DNA of 44,269 nt from a virus: the IMG/VR virus record IMGVR_UViG_3300042988_002854, positions 1 through 44,269 of that record, one strand, 5' to 3'. Shown here one piece after another: positions 1-44,017 of this stretch. Positions within the stretch are counted from its first letter, which is position 1, and each line of letters starts with the position of its first letter. The position numbers were made by a program, and so were the translations under genes. The notes under the pieces were generated by a model that made no database searches, was not told the DNA's origin, and saw nothing but the letters and a program-made list of their open reading frames with translations.

Positions 1-1671
1 TCATGCAAGAGATCCAGGCAGGGCTGGAATCGTGGCTTGGTATCTTGCTTCAAGGGGGCCAACCTGCTCTTTGGGAATACGACCGTCAAGAGCAAGACGA
101 TAAGGGTGGCTACCCCACTTATGAAAGCACGACTGCCAGTACTCAAATGTACGTAGATCGTTCGGGGTGCCCCAACACAAATAGCCATCCACTTCAAAAA
201 GACGGCACTGCAATCCGAGCGCGATCGCATCATTGATCAGCGAATCAATGTAAAACTCCCCATTGATCCGCCCATCGCGTGCGATGAGTCGATCCAAGGC
301 CCGACGAAAGTCATCAGCCCGGCGAAAGGTGAATGTGCCTAAAACGATGGGATCAGATGCCGGCTTGTCCAATGGCGTTTTGACTGAGACCGAACGGACT
401 TGACCGTCTATGGCGTCGATCCAGCCGAACATTTTTGGGTTGCGTATCGCATTTGGATACCCACGCACACCCCATACGATGACATCCACTAATGGGTCCT
501 CGACCACTTTGCCGAAGGATTCAACGTCGTATAGTGCGCCATTGTCACATGCACCGATCGTTATGGGAGAACAGCTATTTCCCACCTCACCTTCCAGCGC
601 ATCCAGACCAATCAATGCCGTGCAAGCTTGCCCCTCAGTCACGCGATCAATGGTTTTGATTATTGCCTTGGGGTAGAGCGTACTTAATTGTTTTGCCACA
701 TCCGCATATCCAGCCATGTCTGCTCGCAACACAAAAACATGATGTTCAGCGGAGGGTAAGTCATGCGTCGCTTGGGCCACCATTGGCAATCCAGAAACGG
801 GAATGAGTGGCTTGGTAAGTGCATAGCCTTCGTCAGCAAAGCGCTGCCCTAGGCCTGCCATGGGAACAACCAGCGCCCCCTTGGGAGACGGGATACTCTC
901 AGAGTTCGAAATCAGGCTCTGAAATGCTTTTGACCAAGAATTGTATTCAGCGACGTCTTCTGGCGTCCCCCACTGCATGAAGTGCTGGAGAGGATAAACG
1001 GCAACGGGTTTTTTGTTTTCAAGCAGTGGTTTGTAGGCGAGGCTGACGTAATACTCACCACCGACATTCAAATCCTGCTCCATTACCGTGCGAAATGCTT
1101 CACTCATGATTTGAGCTGACGCGAAGTAATAGGTGCCACTGGAGGCATATTCCTCCATGCGATTATTGGTGTAGGGCTGCTTTTCCTGAATATCCAGAAC
1201 CCATCCATCCGATTCACGCATATAAGCATAGTTAGTGCTCCCCAGCGAGTGAGGATGAAAACCTTTGTACGCTGGAATCGCACCTTCGCAGGCTGTTTCT
1301 TTGACGTACCGTTTGAAGTGATGCCAGTCCCAATAGCAGGTGAAATCGCAATAGTTGACAACCACCGGCTCTGTCGGGACGAGCAGGTGCTCCACTTGAC
1401 GAACCGCATTAATGGGGCCAAGTTTATGGGGTGGTATACCGACGATCCGTCCTGAAGGACAGTACTCCTTCAAAATGGCTTCCATCCGATATGTCGGCTC
1501 GTTCAAATGTTCCTGATTGCATATAAATATGAAATCAGTTTCACCGGGAAACATTTCGGTAACGTGACCAACGATTGGCTTGCCATCGATTTCGATCAAC
1601 GGCTTGGGAACTGTGTACCCCGCACGGCGAAAACGCTCTCCAAAGCCGGACATGGGAACGACAATTTGCAC
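1..1671 (-). CDS. Tandem sugar-phosphate nucleotidyltransferase (two NTP_transferase domains)
   Basis: The protein of about 556 aa carries two copies of the nucleotidyltransferase fold used by enzymes that make NDP-sugars from sugar-1-phosphate and NTP. Each copy starts with a matching signature: VVPMSGFGERF...KPL near residue 5 and VVPMAGLGQRF...KPL near residue 268. An upstream in-frame ATG at 1731 exists, but GTG at 1671 is preferred. GGAGG lies 6 nt before it, and it begins VQIVVPM, as family members do. The stop codon is at the very edge of the window, so the gene is complete. It is transcribed in the same direction as the phage late genes, 147 bp after the spanin gene. The substrate cannot be read from sequence. 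Possible roles are capsule or O-antigen sugar activation, by the host or as a phage conversion gene. Most relatives have one catalytic domain, so the fusion is unusual. Confidence 0.75.
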   Translation of the reverse strand: MQIVVPMSGFGERFRRAGYTVPKPLIEIDGKPIVGHVTEMFPGETDFIFICNQEHLNEPTYRMEAILKEYCPSGRIVGIPPHKLGPINAVRQVEHLLVPTEPVVVNYCDFTCYWDWHHFKRYVKETACEGAIPAYKGFHPHSLGSTNYAYMRESDGWVLDIQEKQPYTNNRMEEYASSGTYYFASAQIMSEAFRTVMEQDLNVGGEYYVSLAYKPLLENKKPVAVYPLQHFMQWGTPEDVAEYNSWSKAFQSLISNSESIPSPKGALVVPMAGLGQRFADEGYALTKPLIPVSGLPMVAQATHDLPSAEHHVFVLRADMAGYADVAKQLSTLYPKAIIKTIDRVTEGQACTALIGLDALEGEVGNSCSPITIGACDNGALYDVESFGKVVEDPLVDVIVWGVRGYPNAIRNPKMFGWIDAIDGQVRSVSVKTPLDKPASDPIVLGTFTFRRADDFRRALDRLIARDGRINGEFYIDSLINDAIALGLQCRLFEVDGYLCWGTPNDLRTFEYWQSCFHKWGSHPYRLALDGRIPKEQVGPLEARYQATIPALPGSLA

Positions 1672-1733
1672 AAAAAACCTCCGTTTTGTAGTTTTTTCTG
1701 GTTTTTGTCTTGAACAGACTTTTGCCCTCAAGA

Positions 1734-24451: not shown

Positions 24452-24930
24452 CCATCCAACTCACACCCACCCAGCACGCCATCCTGACCCATGCCTATCA
24501 AAACAACGAGGGCAAGGTCACCTGGTTCCCGGAAAACATCAAGGGCGGTGCGCGCCAAAAGGTGATCGACGGTCTGTCCAAGCGCGGCCTGATCACCCAC
24601 GACGGCCAGAATTGGTTCCTGGCCGCAGAGGGGTATGACGCCCTGGGCGTACCCCGCAAGGCACCGATCAGCGTCGAGGCTATCGATGAAGTCATCCAGA
24701 TTGCGACCACTGCCAAGCCGCGCACGCGGGACAACAGCAAGCAGGCGCAAGTAATCACAATGCTCCAACGCCCCGAGGGCGCCACGATTCCACAGATCAT
24801 GGATGCCACGGGATGGCAGGCACATACGGTACGTGGCACCTTTGCCGGCGCCTTCAAGAAGAAGCTCGGTCTGGACATCACCTCGACCAAAGAGGCCGGC
24901 AGCGAGCGGACCTACAGGATCGTTGCCTGA
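24448..24930 (+). CDS. DUF3489 domain protein
   Basis: In the 160-aa protein, the C-terminal 65 residues are the DUF3489 domain (SKQAQVITMLQRPEGATIPQIMDATGWQAHTVRGTFAGAFKKKLGLDITSTKE), a winged-helix-like putative DNA-binding fold. The N-terminal part (LTPTQHAILTHAY...GARQKVIDGLSKRGLI) is a second helical HTH-like unit. The gene ends 19 bp inside the oppositely directed methyltransferase gene. It may regulate its own small operon. No function is established for the family. Confidence 0.8.
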   Translation: MTIQLTPTQHAILTHAYQNNEGKVTWFPENIKGGARQKVIDGLSKRGLITHDGQNWFLAAEGYDALGVPRKAPISVEAIDEVIQIATTAKPRTRDNSKQAQVITMLQRPEGATIPQIMDATGWQAHTVRGTFAGAFKKKLGLDITSTKEAGSERTYRIVA

Positions 24931-26168
24931 TCGGCGACGGCAAGATCGCCAAACTTCGCGCCATCATTGGCGCGTTTCGCTTCTTGGCCGGTGTAGTCCT
25001 GCCAGCGGCGAACGATCACATCCACGTACTTGGGATCAAGCTCTATCAGGCGCGCACGACGTCCTGATTTTTCGCAGGCAATCAGCGTCGAGCCGGAGCC
25101 GCCAAAGGGATCAAGCACGAGATCCTTGGTCTTGCTGCTGTTACGCACTGCGCGCTCTACCAACTCCACCGGCTTCATGGTCGGATGCAGATCGTTCTTC
25201 TGCGGCTTCTTGATCTGCCAGACGTCACCCTGATCACGGGCGCCGCACCAGAAGTGATCGACGCCATCGCGCCAGCCGTACAGGATCGGTTCGTACTGGC
25301 GCTGGTAATCGGCGCGGCCGAGCGTGAAGGTGTTCTTGGCCCAGATGATGAACGTTGACCACTTGCCACCGGCGGCACGGAAGGCGGACTGCAGCGTATC
25401 CAGTTCCGACGAACTCATGGCGATGTAGACCGCACCCTTGGTGTGGGTCAGGATGTTGGTGCAGGCATCTGTCAGGAAGCTGCCGAAGCTCTCGCCCAGG
25501 TTGTCATTCAAGATCGGGCGGTTCTTGCCGCGCATCTTGTCCTTGGCAGTGTTGGCATAGTTCACGTTGTACGGCGGATCGGTGAACGTCATGTCCATCA
25601 GTTCCTCACCCAGCAAGGTCTTGAAATCATCGGCCTTGGCAGCATCGCCGCACAGTACCTTGTGCTCGCCGAGAATCCAGATGTCACCCGTCTTGGAGAT
25701 GGGCGCTTCCGTGATCTCGGGTACGGCATCGTCATCGGTCAATCCATCTTTGCTGGCCTCATCACCCGCGATCAAGGCTTCCCACTCGTCCTGCGAGAAA
25801 CCGGTCAGACCGAGATCAAATCCAGCTTCCTGCAACTCAGCCAATTCGACGCCGAGCAATTCATCTTCCCAAGAGGCGTTCTCACCGATCTTGTTGTCGG
25901 CCAGGATCAATGCGCGGCGCTGGGTATCGGTCAGATGGTCCATCGGTACGACCGGCACCTCGGCCATGCCGAGCTTGCGCGCGGCCAGCAAACGACCATG
26001 ACCGGCGATCACATTGTTCTTGCCATCGATCAGGATGGGCGCACCCCAGCCAAACTCACGGATGCTGGCGGCGATCTGGGCCACCTGTGCGTCCGAATGC
26101 TGCTTGGCATTGCGGGCATACGGGATCAGCGAGTCGATTGCACGGTAGTGAATCTGCAAGGTGTTCAT
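24912..26168 (-). CDS. ParB-like nuclease-domain DNA methyltransferase (amino-MTase, beta class)
   Basis: The 418-aa protein has an N-terminal ParB/Srx-like domain (IDSLIPYARNAKQHSDAQVAQIAASIREFGWGAPILIDGKNNVIAGHGRLLAARKL, residues 5-60). A class beta N6-adenine/N4-cytosine methyltransferase follows, with DPPY near residue 200 before the AdoMet motif DPFGGSGST near residue 364. Such proteins are widespread in phages and mark phage DNA against host restriction or alter host methylation. No cognate nuclease gene is adjacent. The start at 26168 has a weak ribosome site; 26174 is possible. A strong terminator lies immediately upstream, so a separate promoter may be needed. Confidence 0.9.
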   Translation of the reverse strand: MNTLQIHYRAIDSLIPYARNAKQHSDAQVAQIAASIREFGWGAPILIDGKNNVIAGHGRLLAARKLGMAEVPVVPMDHLTDTQRRALILADNKIGENASWEDELLGVELAELQEAGFDLGLTGFSQDEWEALIAGDEASKDGLTDDDAVPEITEAPISKTGDIWILGEHKVLCGDAAKADDFKTLLGEELMDMTFTDPPYNVNYANTAKDKMRGKNRPILNDNLGESFGSFLTDACTNILTHTKGAVYIAMSSSELDTLQSAFRAAGGKWSTFIIWAKNTFTLGRADYQRQYEPILYGWRDGVDHFWCGARDQGDVWQIKKPQKNDLHPTMKPVELVERAVRNSSKTKDLVLDPFGGSGSTLIACEKSGRRARLIELDPKYVDVIVRRWQDYTGQEAKRANDGAKFGDLAVADQATIL

Positions 26169-26183
26169 CGGCATCCAGGAATG

Positions 26184-26216
26184 AAAAAACCCGCCGCGAG
26201 TCGAGCTCAGGGCGGG
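26184..26216 (-). terminator. Intrinsic terminator upstream of the methyltransferase gene
   Basis: On the minus strand CCCGCC (26211-26216) pairs with GGCGGG (26190-26195), followed by TTTTTT (26184-26189). The loop contains an extra GAGCTC-type pairing. It ends 15 bp before the methyltransferase ATG, so it stops or limits transcription coming from the right. Confidence 0.7.
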
Positions 26217-26402
26217 CTTGGGGTCTGGGTGAACATTGCAAAACTGGTTTGATCCAGTGCTTGCAACGCTGTCCAGAAGATAGCCGAAATAGTAGTGCAA
26301 AACCCCGTCATGTGTTGCAAGCCAAAAGGACGGTTTGTGCCGTGCATGCACGCAACAATGCAATTTGCGCCGCTCGTTGGTGCCAAATTCCTACGAATCC
26401 CC
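26217..26402. other. Noncoding interval with repeated TTGCAA motifs between two terminators
   Basis: No gene was seen here. TTGCAA occurs at 26236, 26261 and 26315, with GTGCAA at 26295 and related ATGCAATTTGC near 26360. The interval lies between the toxin-antitoxin terminator and the one before the methyltransferase. It could be a regulatory or protein-binding region, or a short untranslated RNA ending at 26184. None of this is proven. Confidence 0.3.
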
Positions 26403-38040: not shown

Positions 38041-38391
38041 ATGGCATCCCCCTTTGGAATACGACTACGGGAGTTTCGGGAAGCTAAGGGATTGACGCTG
38101 CAGCAGGTGGCTGAAGCCGTTGGGTGTACCAAGGCCTACGTGTGGGAGCTGGAAATGCGCGAAGGCCAGAAACCCACGGCTGAGCGGCTCAACGCCATCG
38201 CCAAGACCCTGGGCGTCACCATTCAGGACCTGCTTGGTGAACCCGTGGCGCCCATGCAAACACCGACTGCGACCGATGTGGCCTTCTTCCGGGAGTACGC
38301 CGGCATGAGTGAGGCCGAGAAAACCAAGTACCGTGAGGCGATGAAACTCATGTTCGGTTCGCCGTCCAAACCTGATTCGGAGAAGTCTTGA
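38041..38391 (+). CDS. XRE-family repressor
   Basis: This 116-aa protein has an N-terminal lambda-type HTH (GIRLREFREAKGLTLQQVAEAVGCTKAYVWELEMREGQKPTAERLNAIAKTLGVTIQDLLGE, residues 6-68) and a short helical tail (DVAFFREYAGMSEAEKTKYREAMKLMFG). It has no LexA-type autocleavage domain. Inactivation therefore probably depends on the ImmA/IrrE-like protease encoded next, or on the BRO antirepressor. It is divergent from the early operon. Confidence 0.85.
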   Translation: MASPFGIRLREFREAKGLTLQQVAEAVGCTKAYVWELEMREGQKPTAERLNAIAKTLGVTIQDLLGEPVAPMQTPTATDVAFFREYAGMSEAEKTKYREAMKLMFGSPSKPDSEKS

Positions 38392-39314
38392 CGGCTGCGG
38401 ACGACCTAAACGCCTTCAAGGCCGCCTCCCGCATCCTTACCTGGCTTGGCGCGACCGGGCGACTGACCCTGCCTATTGACCTCGATCTGGTCCGGCAACT
38501 GCTGCCCGACACGCCACTGGGTCGCGGCAACACGATCAAGGCCCCAGCAGATCTCACGTGGAATGCCAGCGAAGGTGCCCTGGTGCGCAACCCCGACAAA
38601 TTGGAAGAATGGGGAATATTCGTCAACCCGAAGGCACGCCCTGAACGCCAGCGCTTCACCATTGCCCATGAGCTTGGGCATTTCGTCCTGCACCGCGCCA
38701 GCCAGGCCAGTTTCCTGTGTGACAAGGAAAGCGTGTATGCCGGCATCGACGGCCTGAAGCAGATCGAACGTGAGGCAGATGATTTCGCCAGCAATCTGCT
38801 GATGCCCGGCGACATGCTGCGCGACAGGATCACCGGCAAGCGCATCGATTTCCATCTGATCGGTGAGTTGGCCCACGAGTTCGGCGTATCGCTCGAGTCG
38901 ATGTCCATCCGCATCATCAAGTACACCGAACAGCGCGCCATGCTGGTGTATTGGGATCACGGCTTCCTGAAATACCAATGGCCCAGCGGCGAAGCTCGAA
39001 AGACTCGCGTGCGTTTGCGCAAGACCGGTGATCCGCAGGAACCGCTGATTGGCACCCTGGCTGCCGACGATTCAGTGGAGCAGGAGTGGGATGGTGTTGA
39101 TATGCCTGCCAAGGTCTGGTGCTCCAGTGAGGCGGACGACATCAAGCTGCGGGAGATGAAGCACACCTACACCAACGGCAATCGTGTGCTGTCCATGCTC
39201 ATGTTGGAGTCCGCGCCGCCGCGAACCTATTTCCGCAGCGGTTGGGAGGATGACGAGACGCGTGATACTTTCGATCGTTTCGTCGACAACGGGCAACCGC
39301 CAATCCGTTCCTGA
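38388..39314 (+). CDS. ImmA/IrrE-family metalloprotease, TTG start
   Basis: The 308-aa protein has the zinc-protease motif HELGH at residues 94-98 within RFTIAHELGHFVLHR. A downstream acidic helix READDFASNLLMP supplies the third ligand. A C-terminal domain of about 120 aa has beta-rich segments (AMLVYWDHGFLKYQWPSG). Family members cleave a partner XRE repressor (ImmR in ICEBs1, DdrO in Deinococcus). The TTG start overlaps the repressor stop, with GGAG 5 nt upstream, so the two are translationally coupled. The target is inferred. Confidence 0.87.
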   Translation: MTAADDLNAFKAASRILTWLGATGRLTLPIDLDLVRQLLPDTPLGRGNTIKAPADLTWNASEGALVRNPDKLEEWGIFVNPKARPERQRFTIAHELGHFVLHRASQASFLCDKESVYAGIDGLKQIEREADDFASNLLMPGDMLRDRITGKRIDFHLIGELAHEFGVSLESMSIRIIKYTEQRAMLVYWDHGFLKYQWPSGEARKTRVRLRKTGDPQEPLIGTLAADDSVEQEWDGVDMPAKVWCSSEADDIKLREMKHTYTNGNRVLSMLMLESAPPRTYFRSGWEDDETRDTFDRFVDNGQPPIRS

Positions 39315-39929: not shown

Positions 39930-40166
39930 ATGCCAAAAATCGAAACTCCCTCCACATCACGCCGTGGCGCACAGGATTCACGCCCCCGGCATCCGTACCG
40001 CGAAATCGCAGACCTGCTTGCGGCTGCCATCATGCGTGCCCGCGTAAAGGCAGGCACTGCGCCAGAAGCAACTGCGGCGCAGGCAAACAGCGAAGTTTGT
40101 CTTGGCTTTACTGCCAACCAGAGCGTTCATACGAACCCGTCTTATGCAGAAGGAGTTCGTGAATGA
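39930..40166 (+). CDS. Small protein of the serine-recombinase cassette
   Basis: A 78-aa basic N-terminus (MPKIETPSTSRRGAQDSRPRHPYREIADLLAAAIMRARVKAG) is followed by a variable tail. It precedes and overlaps the DUF2924 gene by 4 nt. Small proteins in this slot accompany DUF2924-recombinase operons in many proteobacteria. A DNA-binding accessory or directionality role is possible but not shown. The ribosome site is weak. The 94-bp gap before it shows only a small inverted repeat. Confidence 0.6.
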   Translation: MPKIETPSTSRRGAQDSRPRHPYREIADLLAAAIMRARVKAGTAPEATAAQANSEVCLGFTANQSVHTNPSYAEGVRE

Positions 40167-40627
40167 CGACACACGCAGCCAACGTGGCGGCGCAAATCGC
40201 GCAGCTGCCAACCTTACCCATGGAAAACCTCTGGGCACTATGGGATGACTTTTTCGACCGGCGCCCCGGTCATCATCACCGCACATACCTGGAGACGCGC
40301 ATCGCTTACAAGCTACAGGAGCGCGCCCACGGTGGATTGCCCGTCACCCTTCGCCGCCGTCTGGAAAAAATCGGCGAAACCGGTGAGATCCCCAACCAGA
40401 AACGTCGGTCGGAAAACCAGGTCGCTCCCGGCACAGTGATGGTGCGGGAATTCAACGGCATCAACCACCGGGTCACGGTGCTGGACGATGGACGCTTCGA
40501 ATACCAAGGGCGCCCATACAAAAGCCTCACCGCCGTTGCGCGCGTCATTACCGGGACCACCTATTCCGGCCCGGTGTTTTTCGGCCTGAAGCCAACACAC
40601 CGCGAGCGCCAGAAGGAGGTCGCATGA
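40163..40627 (+). CDS. DUF2924 family protein, recombinase-associated
   Basis: The 154-aa protein shows the DUF2924 pattern: VAAQIAQLPTLPMENLWALWDDFFDRRPGHHHRTYLETRIAYKLQERAHGGLP, then PGTVMVREFNGINHRVTVLDDGRFEYQGRPYKSLTAVARVITGTTYSGPVFFGL. Family members are found almost always just before a large serine recombinase. ATGA overlaps link it to both neighbours. A helper or directionality function is plausible, unproven. Confidence 0.88.
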   Translation: MTTHAANVAAQIAQLPTLPMENLWALWDDFFDRRPGHHHRTYLETRIAYKLQERAHGGLPVTLRRRLEKIGETGEIPNQKRRSENQVAPGTVMVREFNGINHRVTVLDDGRFEYQGRPYKSLTAVARVITGTTYSGPVFFGLKPTHRERQKEVA

Positions 40628-42051
40628 AACCGACGAATACACGTCCTGCCATCACGCCCAAGCGCCGCTGCGCGATCTACACCCGTAAGTCCACTGACGA
40701 AGGGCTGGACCAGGAATACAACAGCCTGGAGGCACAACGCGATTCCGCGTTGGCATTCATCAGCAGCCAACGGCACGAAGGATGGATCGCCATTGATGAC
40801 GGCTACGACGATGGTGGATTCTCCGGCGGCAACATCAACCGTCCTGCGCTCAAGCGACTGCTTGCCGATGTTGAGGACGGACGCATCGATGTCGTGGTCG
40901 TCTACAAAATCGACCGCCTATCTCGCTCACTCGGTGACTTCGCCAAGATCGTCGATCTTTTCGATGCCCACGGCGTAACCTTCGTTTCCGTCACCCAGCA
41001 GTTCAACACCACGACCAGCATGGGCCGACTCACGCTCAATATCCTGCTGTCCTTCGCGCAATTCGAGCGGGAGGTGACCGGCGAGCGCATCCGCGATAAG
41101 TTGGCGGCGAGCAAGGCCAAAGGCATGTGGATGGGTGGCGTTCCGCCACTGGGTTACGACGTGCAGGATCGCAAGCTGGTCATCAATGAGCCTGAGGCGG
41201 TGCTGGTTCGCGACATCTTCACTCGCTATGCCGAACACGGATCGGCGGCGCAACTGGTGCGGGAACTGCAGATCGAGGGACACACCACAAAGGCATGGGT
41301 GACGCAAGGCGGCCGGCACCGCGTTGGGAAAACCATCGACCAGCAATATTTGTTTGCGATGATGCGCAACCGCCTCTACCTTGGCGAGATCAGCAATCAT
41401 GGCCAGTCGTACCCCGGGCAGCATCAGGCGATCATCTGCCGTGAAGTGTGGGATGCCGTGCATGCCATCATCGAGAAGCGGAAAAAGGGGCCACGGGTCA
41501 AGCACACCGAGAATCCAGCACTGCTGACAGGCTTGCTTTACGCGCCGGATGGTCAACGCCTGCTGCCGTCCCACACCACGAAAAAGAACGGCCGGCGCTA
41601 CCGGTACTACGTGCCGTATCTGGAAAAGCGACAAGGTGCAGGCGCATCCGCACAAGCAGGACGTCGCAGCATCGGGCCGCTGCCGGCAGCCGAAATCGAA
41701 CGCGCTGTGCTTACCCAGGCGCATCAGGTACTGCAGGCACCGGAGATGATCATTGCGGTTTGGCAGGCCAGCATGGCGTCGCAGGAGCGCGCTGCAATGG
41801 ACGAGCCGTCCATCGTGGTCGCAATGCGGCAAATCAGCGCGGTGTGGGAGCACCTGTTCCCAGCCGAACAGAACCGCATCATGCGGTTGCTGATTGAGCG
41901 AGTTCAACTGCGCGATGATGGAATGGACATTCTCTGGCGCGACGATAGCTGGCCCCAATTCCGCAGGGAATTGGAACGCCAGCCGTTTGTCAGCGAGCAA
42001 CGCGAATCCACCGACCCGTCGGAATTCGATGCCATGGAGGTGCTGGCATGA
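40624..42051 (+). CDS. Large serine recombinase (integrase)
   Basis: The 475-aa protein has a resolvase catalytic domain at residues 15-165, with nucleophile Ser23 in YTRKSTDEG and arginines in KIDRLSRSLGDFAK and FEREVTGERIRDK. The recombinase domain follows (GYDVQDRKLVINEPEAVLVRDIFTRYAEHGSAAQLVREL). The usual zinc-ribbon region (LTGLLYAPDGQRLLPSHTTKKNGRRYRYYVPY) has lost its cysteines, and a short helical tail follows. It should integrate and excise the prophage. It is coupled by 4-nt overlaps to DUF2924 and the HTH partner. Confidence 0.93.
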   Translation: MKPTNTRPAITPKRRCAIYTRKSTDEGLDQEYNSLEAQRDSALAFISSQRHEGWIAIDDGYDDGGFSGGNINRPALKRLLADVEDGRIDVVVVYKIDRLSRSLGDFAKIVDLFDAHGVTFVSVTQQFNTTTSMGRLTLNILLSFAQFEREVTGERIRDKLAASKAKGMWMGGVPPLGYDVQDRKLVINEPEAVLVRDIFTRYAEHGSAAQLVRELQIEGHTTKAWVTQGGRHRVGKTIDQQYLFAMMRNRLYLGEISNHGQSYPGQHQAIICREVWDAVHAIIEKRKKGPRVKHTENPALLTGLLYAPDGQRLLPSHTTKKNGRRYRYYVPYLEKRQGAGASAQAGRRSIGPLPAAEIERAVLTQAHQVLQAPEMIIAVWQASMASQERAAMDEPSIVVAMRQISAVWEHLFPAEQNRIMRLLIERVQLRDDGMDILWRDDSWPQFRRELERQPFVSEQRESTDPSEFDAMEVLA

Positions 42052-42521
42052 ACAACGATGACAACATCAGCCGTGGAGCGCAACGCAAGGTTGAAATCAC
42101 GATCACAGGCGAGGCTCGCCAGTTTGAAGCCGGTGGCCAGTCCGTGACGTTCGTGCCGCTGACCATCAAGCGCCGCAGCTACAGCAAGGTACTGGTACCA
42201 CCGCCAGGCAGCCAGAGCGCCAAGGTCAAGTCATCGTTTGATCTACCGCTGATCCGCACCTTGGGCAAGGCCTACTACTGGCAGCGGCTTCTGGACACTG
42301 GCGCCGTCGCCAATGCAACTGAACTGGGCCGGCAGCTTCGCCTGGAGCCCGGCTGGGTCGCCGAGGTATTGCGGCTGACGCGGTTGGCACCGGACATCGT
42401 CCAGGCCATCCTGGAGGGGCGTCAGCCGCGCCACCTCAACCTGCATGCGGTACGCGGCCGCCAGGCTGAGGTGCCAGTCGATTGGCAGGAGCAGCGGGTG
42501 CTCTTTGGGTTCGCAAAATAA
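42048..42521 (+). CDS. HTH partner protein of the serine recombinase
   Basis: In this 157-aa protein the C-terminal half has a helix-turn-helix similar to that in ParB-type proteins: LLDTGAVANATELGRQLRLEPGWVAEVLRLTRLAPDIVQAILEGRQPRHLNL. The N-terminal part (IKRRSYSKVLVPP) is basic. Proteins of this kind follow serine recombinases in this cassette, and the same segment is fused to the recombinase C-terminus in other genomes. It probably helps DNA binding or excision control. Confidence 0.75.
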   Translation: MNNDDNISRGAQRKVEITITGEARQFEAGGQSVTFVPLTIKRRSYSKVLVPPPGSQSAKVKSSFDLPLIRTLGKAYYWQRLLDTGAVANATELGRQLRLEPGWVAEVLRLTRLAPDIVQAILEGRQPRHLNLHAVRGRQAEVPVDWQEQRVLFGFAK

Positions 42522-42551
42522 GGCGCTCTGTGCTGGACTCGATGCATGCAC

Positions 42552-43484
42552 TTATAGCAAGGCAACAAGTTGCTGGCAAAGCTGCTTTGGAGAGGCGAAC
42601 TGAACTTGCTGAGGCAATTTTGCGCTACGACGCAGCATGGCGATTAGCAAGCACGCTGTGTAAGACCAACACGTCGCATTGTCCGCGACGTCTGCTTCCA
42701 AGACGAGGTGCACAAAACGCTCTCGAATCGGTGGATGCGTGTCCTGAACAGCACTAGCCATACCTTGAGACTCGGCATGAGCGATAGTCAGTGCGGCGGT
42801 CGCTAAGCCGATGACTCGCTTGCTGGCTACTCTGTCGGCGACCTCCCCCGCTGTAGAAGAATAGGCATCGACCTTCTCAAGGAGCATACTCCGACTGAAG
42901 TCGTCGCAGGCTTGTTCCTCGTCAGCAGGCACTGTTGGAGCATTCCCCTCAGCCGCAAATTGCACGTGCTGGAATTCATGCAGGAAGGTCGCTGCCGCGG
43001 CCAAGCAGGCTATGTCAAAGCAGGCTTGGTCTTCAACGTTTGCTAGTGCTTCCCGATTCGTGCCAGGCCGAGGAACCTCGACAGGCCAATCCAACGCCTC
43101 AAGATCATTGACCAACTGAATCTGCTTCGCGAAGTAGAGCAGCGCGTCGAGTTCTGCCTCGGCTGCATCCAGGCCCACGTCATCGACAAGTGCCTGCGTC
43201 AAAATCTCGCCACTGAACGCTTCTCCGAACAAGACATGAGGGCCATATGCAACCAACGCCTTGAAGCCTGCAAAGGTAACGACCCAGTCATGGGCGAAGG
43301 TCTTGTGCATCCAGGAGACTTTGTTTCCAAGCGCACTAATGGCTAGGCCTGCACCGTCCTGCCTCAAAGCAAATCGAGGTTCGAACCGTTCCCAGAATAC
43401 TTGAAATTCCGACGCCCTTTCGGGGCAAGCCCCGAGCAGGAGATTTGAGACCGCGCTTGTAGGTACGTCAATTGGTTCTGACAT
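42552..43484 (-). CDS. Lit-like metalloprotease (peptidase U49 family), putative phage exclusion protein
   Basis: The 310-aa protein has a zinc-protease motif HEFQH at residues 169-173 in AAATFLHEFQHVQFAAEGNAP, followed by the acidic ADEEQACDDFSRSMLL at about 187-202. That is the layout of E. coli Lit (297 aa). Lit cleaves EF-Tu when a T4 Gol peptide is present, killing the infected cell. ATG at 43484 has GAGG 6 nt upstream. It lies convergent with the recombinase cassette (30 bp), the typical place for prophage cargo. Its trigger and substrate are unknown. The N-terminal 130 residues are not obviously conserved. Confidence 0.72.
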   Translation of the reverse strand: MSEPIDVPTSAVSNLLLGACPERASEFQVFWERFEPRFALRQDGAGLAISALGNKVSWMHKTFAHDWVVTFAGFKALVAYGPHVLFGEAFSGEILTQALVDDVGLDAAEAELDALLYFAKQIQLVNDLEALDWPVEVPRPGTNREALANVEDQACFDIACLAAAATFLHEFQHVQFAAEGNAPTVPADEEQACDDFSRSMLLEKVDAYSSTAGEVADRVASKRVIGLATAALTIAHAESQGMASAVQDTHPPIRERFVHLVLEADVADNATCWSYTACLLIAMLRRSAKLPQQVQFASPKQLCQQLVALL

Positions 43485-43512
43485 GTGTTGCCTCGGGCGT
43501 TGGCAAGTAACG

Positions 43513-43617
43513 TTAATGGCAGGATGCGGACGTAGCAAGAGAAACATCCAACCCGATGTAGCGGTTTGTGGAGTAATTTTGCGTTGATGCCAATTCAGTT
43601 GGTGGGGACATTTTCAT
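43513..43617 (-). pseudogene. IS110-type transposase remnant (N-terminus only)
   Basis: A short frame encodes MKMSPPTELASTQNYSTNRY and then IGLDVSLATSAS before a stop. The phrase IGLDVSL is the start of the DEDD domain of IS110/IS1111 transposases (first catalytic Asp). The homology ends abruptly about 34 residues in, just upstream of the Lit-like gene. Most of the element is lost. The surrounding gap (43485-43909) shows no other gene. Confidence 0.55.
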
Positions 43618-43909
43618 GTTGTTGCTGGCGAGGTGCCGACGAAGCCTCTTTGTGTTCGCCAAATGATGAACACAGTGTAGGACAGTGCCCGTCGAACCGC
43701 TATCAGCGGCACAGGTGTAACCTACTGGCAGCAAAGGCCGTTTGCGTGTGCCAGTTGTGTGCTGTTCTGCAATATTTTTTGAGAACAGAGAGCAGAACAG
43801 GGGCAAACCGGCCGAGATATGGCGGAAATTTGAGTGGCATCGACGGATGCCTGGCACAGGTAGAACGGGCCGGAACCCCGCGTGCATTGGGGGAAGGCCA
43901 GAAATTGAA

Positions 43910-43941: not shown

Positions 43942-44017
<76 letters not shown>

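Follow-up and report, generated by a model that had tools for sequence, protein, structure and literature searches.

Does the gene beside the integrase at the right end of this prophage encode a Lit-type exclusion protease, and how far does it follow the Lit of prophage e14 in fold, setting and mode of action? The window, meaning the whole stretch of viral DNA analysed here, spans 44,269 nucleotides (IMG/VR record IMGVR_UViG_3300042988_002854), and a first-pass annotation of its sequence had proposed a distant Lit-type abortive-infection protease at this end. It was concluded that the 310-amino-acid product (P0001) is probably a latent Lit (U49) zinc metalloprotease, carried by the prophage as abortive-infection cargo. 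Membership of the family, intact active-site motifs and an exchangeable cargo slot were observed, and a fold in common with e14 Lit is predicted by structural models.

The gene and its family

The reading frame runs on the minus strand from an ATG at 43484 to a stop at 42552, and homology over its full length, in excess of chance, confirms it as a real gene; translated on the plus strand, the same interval holds many stops. An alternative frame of 331 amino acids is also open from an upstream ATG at 43547. The 310-amino-acid start agrees with the starts of relatives (MSEP... versus MTTEP...), and a GAGG lies a few bases 5' of its ATG. The search for promoter-like sites near the gene returned none, with 0.5 expected. 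The HEFQH motif and the acidic EEQACDDF stretch picked out at first reading lie at residues 169-173 and 189-196, H169 being the first histidine as originally numbered, and a third motif, DTHPPIRERF, follows at residues 248-257. Coordinates are collected in Table 1.

Table 1. Features at the right end of the window (strand "." where none applies)
Feature	Position	Strand	Basis
DUF2924 gene of the integrase cassette	40163..40627	+	Pfam
Large serine recombinase (integrase), Resolvase and Recombinase domains	40624..42051	+	Pfam
157-aa gene after the recombinase, no Pfam match	42048..42521	+	Downstream of the recombinase in 80/80 related viral loci (best 80 of 144)
Cargo segment differing among sibling prophages at the same tRNA-Phe, edges approximate	42522..43742	.	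Homology breaks versus L125, L126, L128
lit-like gene, 310 aa, peptidase U49 family (P0001)	42552..43484	-	Pfam, PADLOC and NCBI model matches
HPPIRER codons (residues 250-256), HPX4R plug-like motif	42717..42737	-	R256 in 51/51 relatives, P251 in 48/51; position 250 His in 18 and Tyr in 33 of 51
EEQACD codons (residues 189-194)	42903..42920	-	E189, E190 and D194 each in 51/51 relatives
HEFQH codons (residues 169-173), zinc/catalytic motif	42966..42980	-	H169 and E170 in 51/51 relatives, H173 in 50/51
Phage-side right arm common to siblings; prophage end near 43850	43743..43850	.	Sibling homology
tRNA-Phe (GAA), host flank	43942..44017	-	tRNA gene call

Three models match the protein: Pfam peptidase U49 (PF10463; 26.5 bits against a gathering cut-off of 23.9, residues 115-259), the PADLOC Lit model (E 4.6e-11) and the NCBI Lit equivalog NF007238 (E 6.9e-34, residues 9-306 on model positions 9-299). 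The likeness extends far beyond the HEXXH motif, and the proposal of a distant zinc protease of the U49/Lit family is supported. The curated cut-off of NF007238 is missed (117.4 versus 274 bits), and the protein is therefore to be regarded as a member of the broad U49 family, not as an equivalog of e14 Lit. Pairwise, BLASTP against e14 Lit gives 27% identity over 199 positions (E 4e-8), overall identity ranging from 23 to 27%. In alignment, the HExxH stands in register with H160, E161 and H164, which we take to be the catalytic residues of e14 Lit. On sequence grounds, the protein is a very diverged member of the known Lit (U49) defence family.

The single protein found no match in viral and genome contigs; phmmer against the PDB and tblastn of phage records at E 0.01 gave no match either, and a profile search of the PDB returned nothing but one chance match, a haemagglutinin. 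Among plasmid records, 46 of 51 cover at least 80% of the 310-residue query. The profile search yielded 57 genome loci and four viral loci with a lit match, and 48 of these 61 were aligned with P0001 and three further proteins in 52 rows, among which e14 Lit occurs twice (L006, P0002); L005, L068 and L069, repeats of the gene of L004, were unused. The 13 loci left out (L025, L053, L055-L061, L064-L067) carry truncated, frameshifted, fused or partial copies, some of them resulting from contig ends. Such frequent breakage would suit the reading that the window's gene is itself decayed or silent, but its frame is full-length and retains every invariant residue, and decay is judged quite improbable.

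Among the broken copies, L055-L061 appear to represent one frameshifted lit (224-amino-acid frame) in seven genomes of Afipia, Bradyrhizobium, Rhizorhabdus and Sphingorhabdus, and its presence across different genera points to recent spread of one element. At L066:7617-9050, a truncated lit shares its reading frame with the C-terminal portion of a serine recombinase and with a tail that resembles the window's 157-amino-acid protein; this may be a deletion fusion or an assembly error.

Identity to P0001 across the 51 other rows is 16-31%. Thirteen residues are nevertheless invariant in all 51 (P21, E22, W67, P134, P138, P140, H169, E170, E189, E190, D194, R223 and R256), and the second histidine of HExxH, H173, is missing only from L033. 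That homologue (L033:9977-10900) is of intact length, its motif reads HEFHQ, and it is probably inactive. In the tree, P0001 forms a lone branch inside the group that is sister to e14 Lit (support of the fork 75/90), so long that its exact place is unsure. Within the order of Thiomonas, the centre of sampling, U49 matched only two of 399 sampled genomes, one of them Thiomonas. The same order holds an extremely diverged U49-like protein (L122:1315-2277, minus strand) with HEYAH, EKEAD and HPQLHHR motifs.

The earlier view that the N-terminus is a different sensor region was abandoned. The NCBI Lit alignment begins at residue 9, three of the invariant residues (P21, E22 and W67) lie in this region, and the predicted structures (P0001, mean pLDDT 91.6, pTM 0.92; an e14 Lit, pLDDT 80.7, pTM 0.84) both begin with a helix, a second helix, three strands and a long helix before a helical catalytic part. 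This common order suggests that the N-terminal region is shared with e14 Lit. The structure alignments held 42 rows (A4) and 23 rows (A6), and since the one behind the e14 Lit model draws 22 rows from the clade to which e14 Lit does not belong, and so is rich in P0001's own, some of the similarity may stem from the input.

The cargo slot at the right end of the prophage

From left to right, the right end of the window carries the DUF2924 gene, the serine recombinase, the 157-amino-acid gene, the lit-like gene on the opposite strand, about 0.37 kb of further DNA, and tRNA-Phe; the host flank beyond holds the last part of a gene identified by eye as encoding a response regulator. The lit-like gene is thus convergent with the integrase cassette, as first described, at 30 bp from the 157-amino-acid gene.

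Related recombinases define this position as a slot. In the scan of viral loci (best 80 of 144, 65-84% identity), the next phage gene, an AlpA-like regulator by eye, was located in 74 of the best 80, the other six ending soon after. No insert is present in 53 of these 74, where the AlpA-like match lies 175-238 bp past the 157-amino-acid match, and in the remaining 21 of the 74 from the best 80 of 144 an insert of 0.9-3.5 kb occurs exactly after the 157-amino-acid gene. None of the best 80 of the 144 loci has a lit. Three sibling prophages (L125, L126 and L128) share both flanking arms with the window: the match breaks off at 42475-42513, is regained at 43743-43776 and extends into the tRNA-Phe region, the tRNA-Phe of L128 having been found by ARAGORN. 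Between the arms lie 112 bp in L125, DarT with a NADAR antitoxin in L126, a 276-amino-acid gene without known function in L128, and lit in the window. In other genomes with the tRNA-Phe neighbourhood, similarity to the window begins only near 43850, save for one 33-base match at 43781-43813. No convincing direct repeat links the window's ends, the longest shared word being 14 bases and inverted, and attL was unlocated.

The cargo survey covered 25 loci with room for more than 500 bp, and representatives of 14 among the roughly 17 distinct cargoes, those of L167, L169 and L202 excepted, were compared with Pfam. Further cargoes include AbiEii with DUF6088, AbiL/RloB, an OLD-like ATPase, HipA and an FRG-domain gene; the non-defence cargoes are a hydrolase, MerT, and KatG together with Dps. 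In L154, L172, L156, L158 and L160 the slot holds either MerT or the KatG-Dps pair, an indication that phages use it for stress cargo too. These mixed contents describe a general accessory slot, rich in defence genes and not confined to them, and because metal and oxidative-stress genes occur there, position alone is no proof of defence. The expectation of defence-type cargo beside the integrase nonetheless stands, the slot being empty or differently filled in sibling prophages. In this prophage family, a well-defined and exchangeable slot for defence genes is the site of a deeply diverged Lit; a brief literature search found no published description of a slot following DUF2924, recombinase and 157-amino-acid genes.

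The same contents bear on the possibility that the protein is a toxin-like or stress protease serving prophage stabilisation or host physiology, since HipA-type, AbiE toxin-antitoxin and stress genes are found in the slot. Against this, the window's lit has no antitoxin-like partner: only about 366 bp separate it from the host flank, and the sole upstream frame of at least 80 amino acids on the same strand runs into the tRNA. In addition, U49 relatives cluster with defence genes, and this explanation is considered unlikely.

A second occupant of the slot was found in Neoroseomonas (L023), where the recombinase is 52% identical to that of the window and is accompanied by the 157-amino-acid gene and, by eye, other window-like genes. 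The L023 lit has the same slot and orientation, is convergent, and lies 48 bp from the 157-amino-acid gene match; it belongs to the clade with tyrosine at position 250, on another branch of the tree than P0001. Inheritance of a single lit by both elements was rejected on this basis, with the reservation that the exact place of P0001's long branch is unsure. The separate branches imply that lit reached the slot at least twice, and hence was recruited there independently.

Among the immediate neighbours of 36 representative lit genes, 18 of 125 proteins match PD-T7-1, and in 11 of the 36 loci (L015:8473-9924, L022, L023:470-1921, L027, L029, L032, L035, L038, L049, L071 and L012) the gene immediately upstream of lit is PD-T7-1-like, with about 463-484 amino acids except for a longer frame in L012. 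In the ten besides L015, the partner shows 78% identity or more to its L015 counterpart, and the pair is possibly a two-gene Lit system. Other neighbours, among the matches listed, are Hachiman, SngA/B, AbiEii, BrxD and GajA. The far-neighbour control is not defence-free (GajA in four of 86 proteins, among the matches listed), as many relatives lie in defence islands. A lit copy on pNDM-CIT has a CBASS-type set of nucleotidyltransferase, ThiF, Mov34 and SAVED genes nearby, and in Agrobacterium Hachiman adjoins a split lit copy.

Several other genes were noted in passing. AbiEii and AbiEi-type genes (L085:873-2338, minus strand) adjoin the same tRNA-Phe in Thiomonas. Within the window, an XRE-type regulator and, after it, an ImmA/IrrE protease (Peptidase_M78), a second HExxH protease of the element, are encoded at 38041-39314 (plus strand) and probably form a prophage induction switch. 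A nucleotidyltransferase-like gene of 576 amino acids at the left end (1-1731, minus strand; 50.4% GC versus 60.4% for the window) would belong to the host or be cargo at the opposite end, and 24912-26363 (minus strand) encodes a fusion of ParB_N, scoring under its cut-off, and an N6_N4 DNA methylase.

Substrate, trigger and latency

According to PMC3014915, e14 Lit is a zinc protease that stays latent until EF-Tu carries the Gol part of T4 gp23, and then cleaves EF-Tu at the Gly59-Ile60 bond; PMC9712102 repeats the account, with the caveat that both partners were overproduced. By analogy with the family, the window's protein may likewise bind zinc, remain latent until a phage trigger appears, act on EF-Tu, and bring about death or arrest of the infected cell. 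In the lysogen the protease would most likely be present in an inactive form. A late product of an infecting phage, the known example being a capsid-protein segment in complex with EF-Tu, would then activate it against a host protein, most probably EF-Tu, cleaved after Gly59, upon which translation and infection would both stop. The trigger of the window's Lit need not be the T4 Gol peptide. The window's own capsid protein matches Phage_capsid and no other Pfam family at E 0.01, which leaves self-triggering via a T4-type Gol segment unsupported.

The low identity to e14 Lit and the missed equivalog cut-off mean that both substrate and trigger may have changed. A protease of the same family and defence role, directed at a different essential host or phage protein, is accordingly a real but lesser possibility. 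It is in keeping with P0001 being a lone deep branch with at most 31% identity to any aligned relative, and with the conserved PD-T7-1-like partner of relatives in 11 of the 36 representative loci, a partner that does not adjoin the window's lit. On the other side, EF-Tu is the only family substrate known to us (PMC3014915), and the cleavage site is conserved in related hosts: the region reads ARGITIN in all five EF-Tu loci read, from three flank-related genomes (no full-length EF-Tu was found in the other three of the six surveyed, two of which had fragments at contig ends). EF-Tu thus remains the favoured substrate.

How Lit is kept off may be approached through the M48 proteases, whose likeness in HExxH, ExxxD and THPxxxxR was spotted before any fold search. 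The ordered motifs are present in all five proteins tested (P0001, e14 Lit and three others) and in 0.06-0.3% of shuffled tails (0.1% for P0001). E190xxxD194 sits where M48 has its third zinc ligand motif and may, from its position in the sequence, supply a ligand. Foldseek gave no match for P0001 or e14 Lit at E 0.001, P0001 returning only helical noise from the PDB and BFVD, and e14 Lit likewise from the PDB. In a second look with VIA-align, M48 structures fill the top four rows for both models: for P0001, BepA has Z 9.0 (rmsd 3.7, 146 aligned) and ZMPSTE24 Z 5.2 (rmsd 3.7, 130 aligned), followed by an M1-type aminopeptidase at 4.9; for e14 Lit, BepA has Z 7.8 (rmsd 3.9, 147 aligned), Ste24 7.0 and ZMPSTE24 5.5, the next being 4.7. 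All these M48 scores fall below the value of about 13 under which Z counts as weak for helical proteins. Pfam M48 (PF01435) does not match P0001 and matches one of the 42 members of A4 at E up to 10 (best E 0.01), against 42 of 42 for PF10463. In hhalign against 33 M48 sequences the probability is 14.6%, and the score of 30.1 exceeds 60 of 60 column shuffles (best 18.4), with EExxxD aligned to ExxxD and THPP to the plug motif; forced global alignments were meaningless and were set aside. Such resemblance to M48 as there is comes from VIA-align, the motifs and a weak profile match.

In BepA, according to PMC7950410, zinc is bound by H136, H140, E201 and the plug residue H246, and H246N behaves as deregulated; the same paper states that Lit matches the pattern HExxH-x(30,140)-HPX4R and that a plug is to be expected in Lit. 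The M48 link was for this reason not retained as wholly new, and the addition made here is a family-wide test. A search with thin coverage of subscription journals found no other paper linking Lit with M48; a U49 peptidase in Bradyrhizobium is mentioned in PMC9069715, in passages without an M48 link. The histidine and tyrosine rows at the plug position (Table 1) are not scattered: in a thinned 41-row tree the tyrosine rows form one side of a branch (support 86/97).

Tentatively, Lit proteases may be cytosolic M48-type enzymes in which the plug histidine (H250; H232 of e14 Lit) fills the fourth zinc position and keeps the protease latent, the phage trigger allowing the EF-Tu substrate to displace the plug. 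The clade often found with PD-T7-1-like genes has tyrosine in place of this histidine, and its latch would then be tuned differently, probably with another trigger or control by a partner. Beyond PMC7950410, the present analysis adds the Glu/Asp motif, the structural models, the His-to-Tyr clade and the proposed tie to latency, and H250/H232 offers a residue-level test of how Lit proteases stay off, a question dating from the Gol-EF-Tu work.

Relation to known systems

The closest comparison is with e14 Lit (E. coli K-12, b1139), which has in common with the window's protein the U49 match, HExxH, ExxxD, THPxxxxR and the predicted order of elements, but is only 23-27% identical to it. Both genes are convergent on an integrase gene, although the integrases differ, that of e14 being IntE, presumably of the tyrosine type, and that of the window a serine recombinase. 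Plasmid Lit-family proteins of Klebsiella and relatives (e.g. pCuAs) are 29-30% identical over 97% of the length and keep the plug histidine, whereas their neighbours are ATP-binding, TerB-type and helicase genes, and in the record read they are not prophage cargo. The M48 proteases BepA and Ste24/ZMPSTE24 share the order of HExxH, ExxxD and HPX4R and are the top VIA-align matches of both models, but P0001 lacks a Pfam M48 match and, by eye, shows neither a signal peptide nor a membrane part; the roles differ too, suicide proteolysis for Lit and envelope quality control for BepA. Finally, the slot itself resembles the cargo slots of other prophages (moron or defence hotspots), in which a single site receives interchangeable genes, often for defence.
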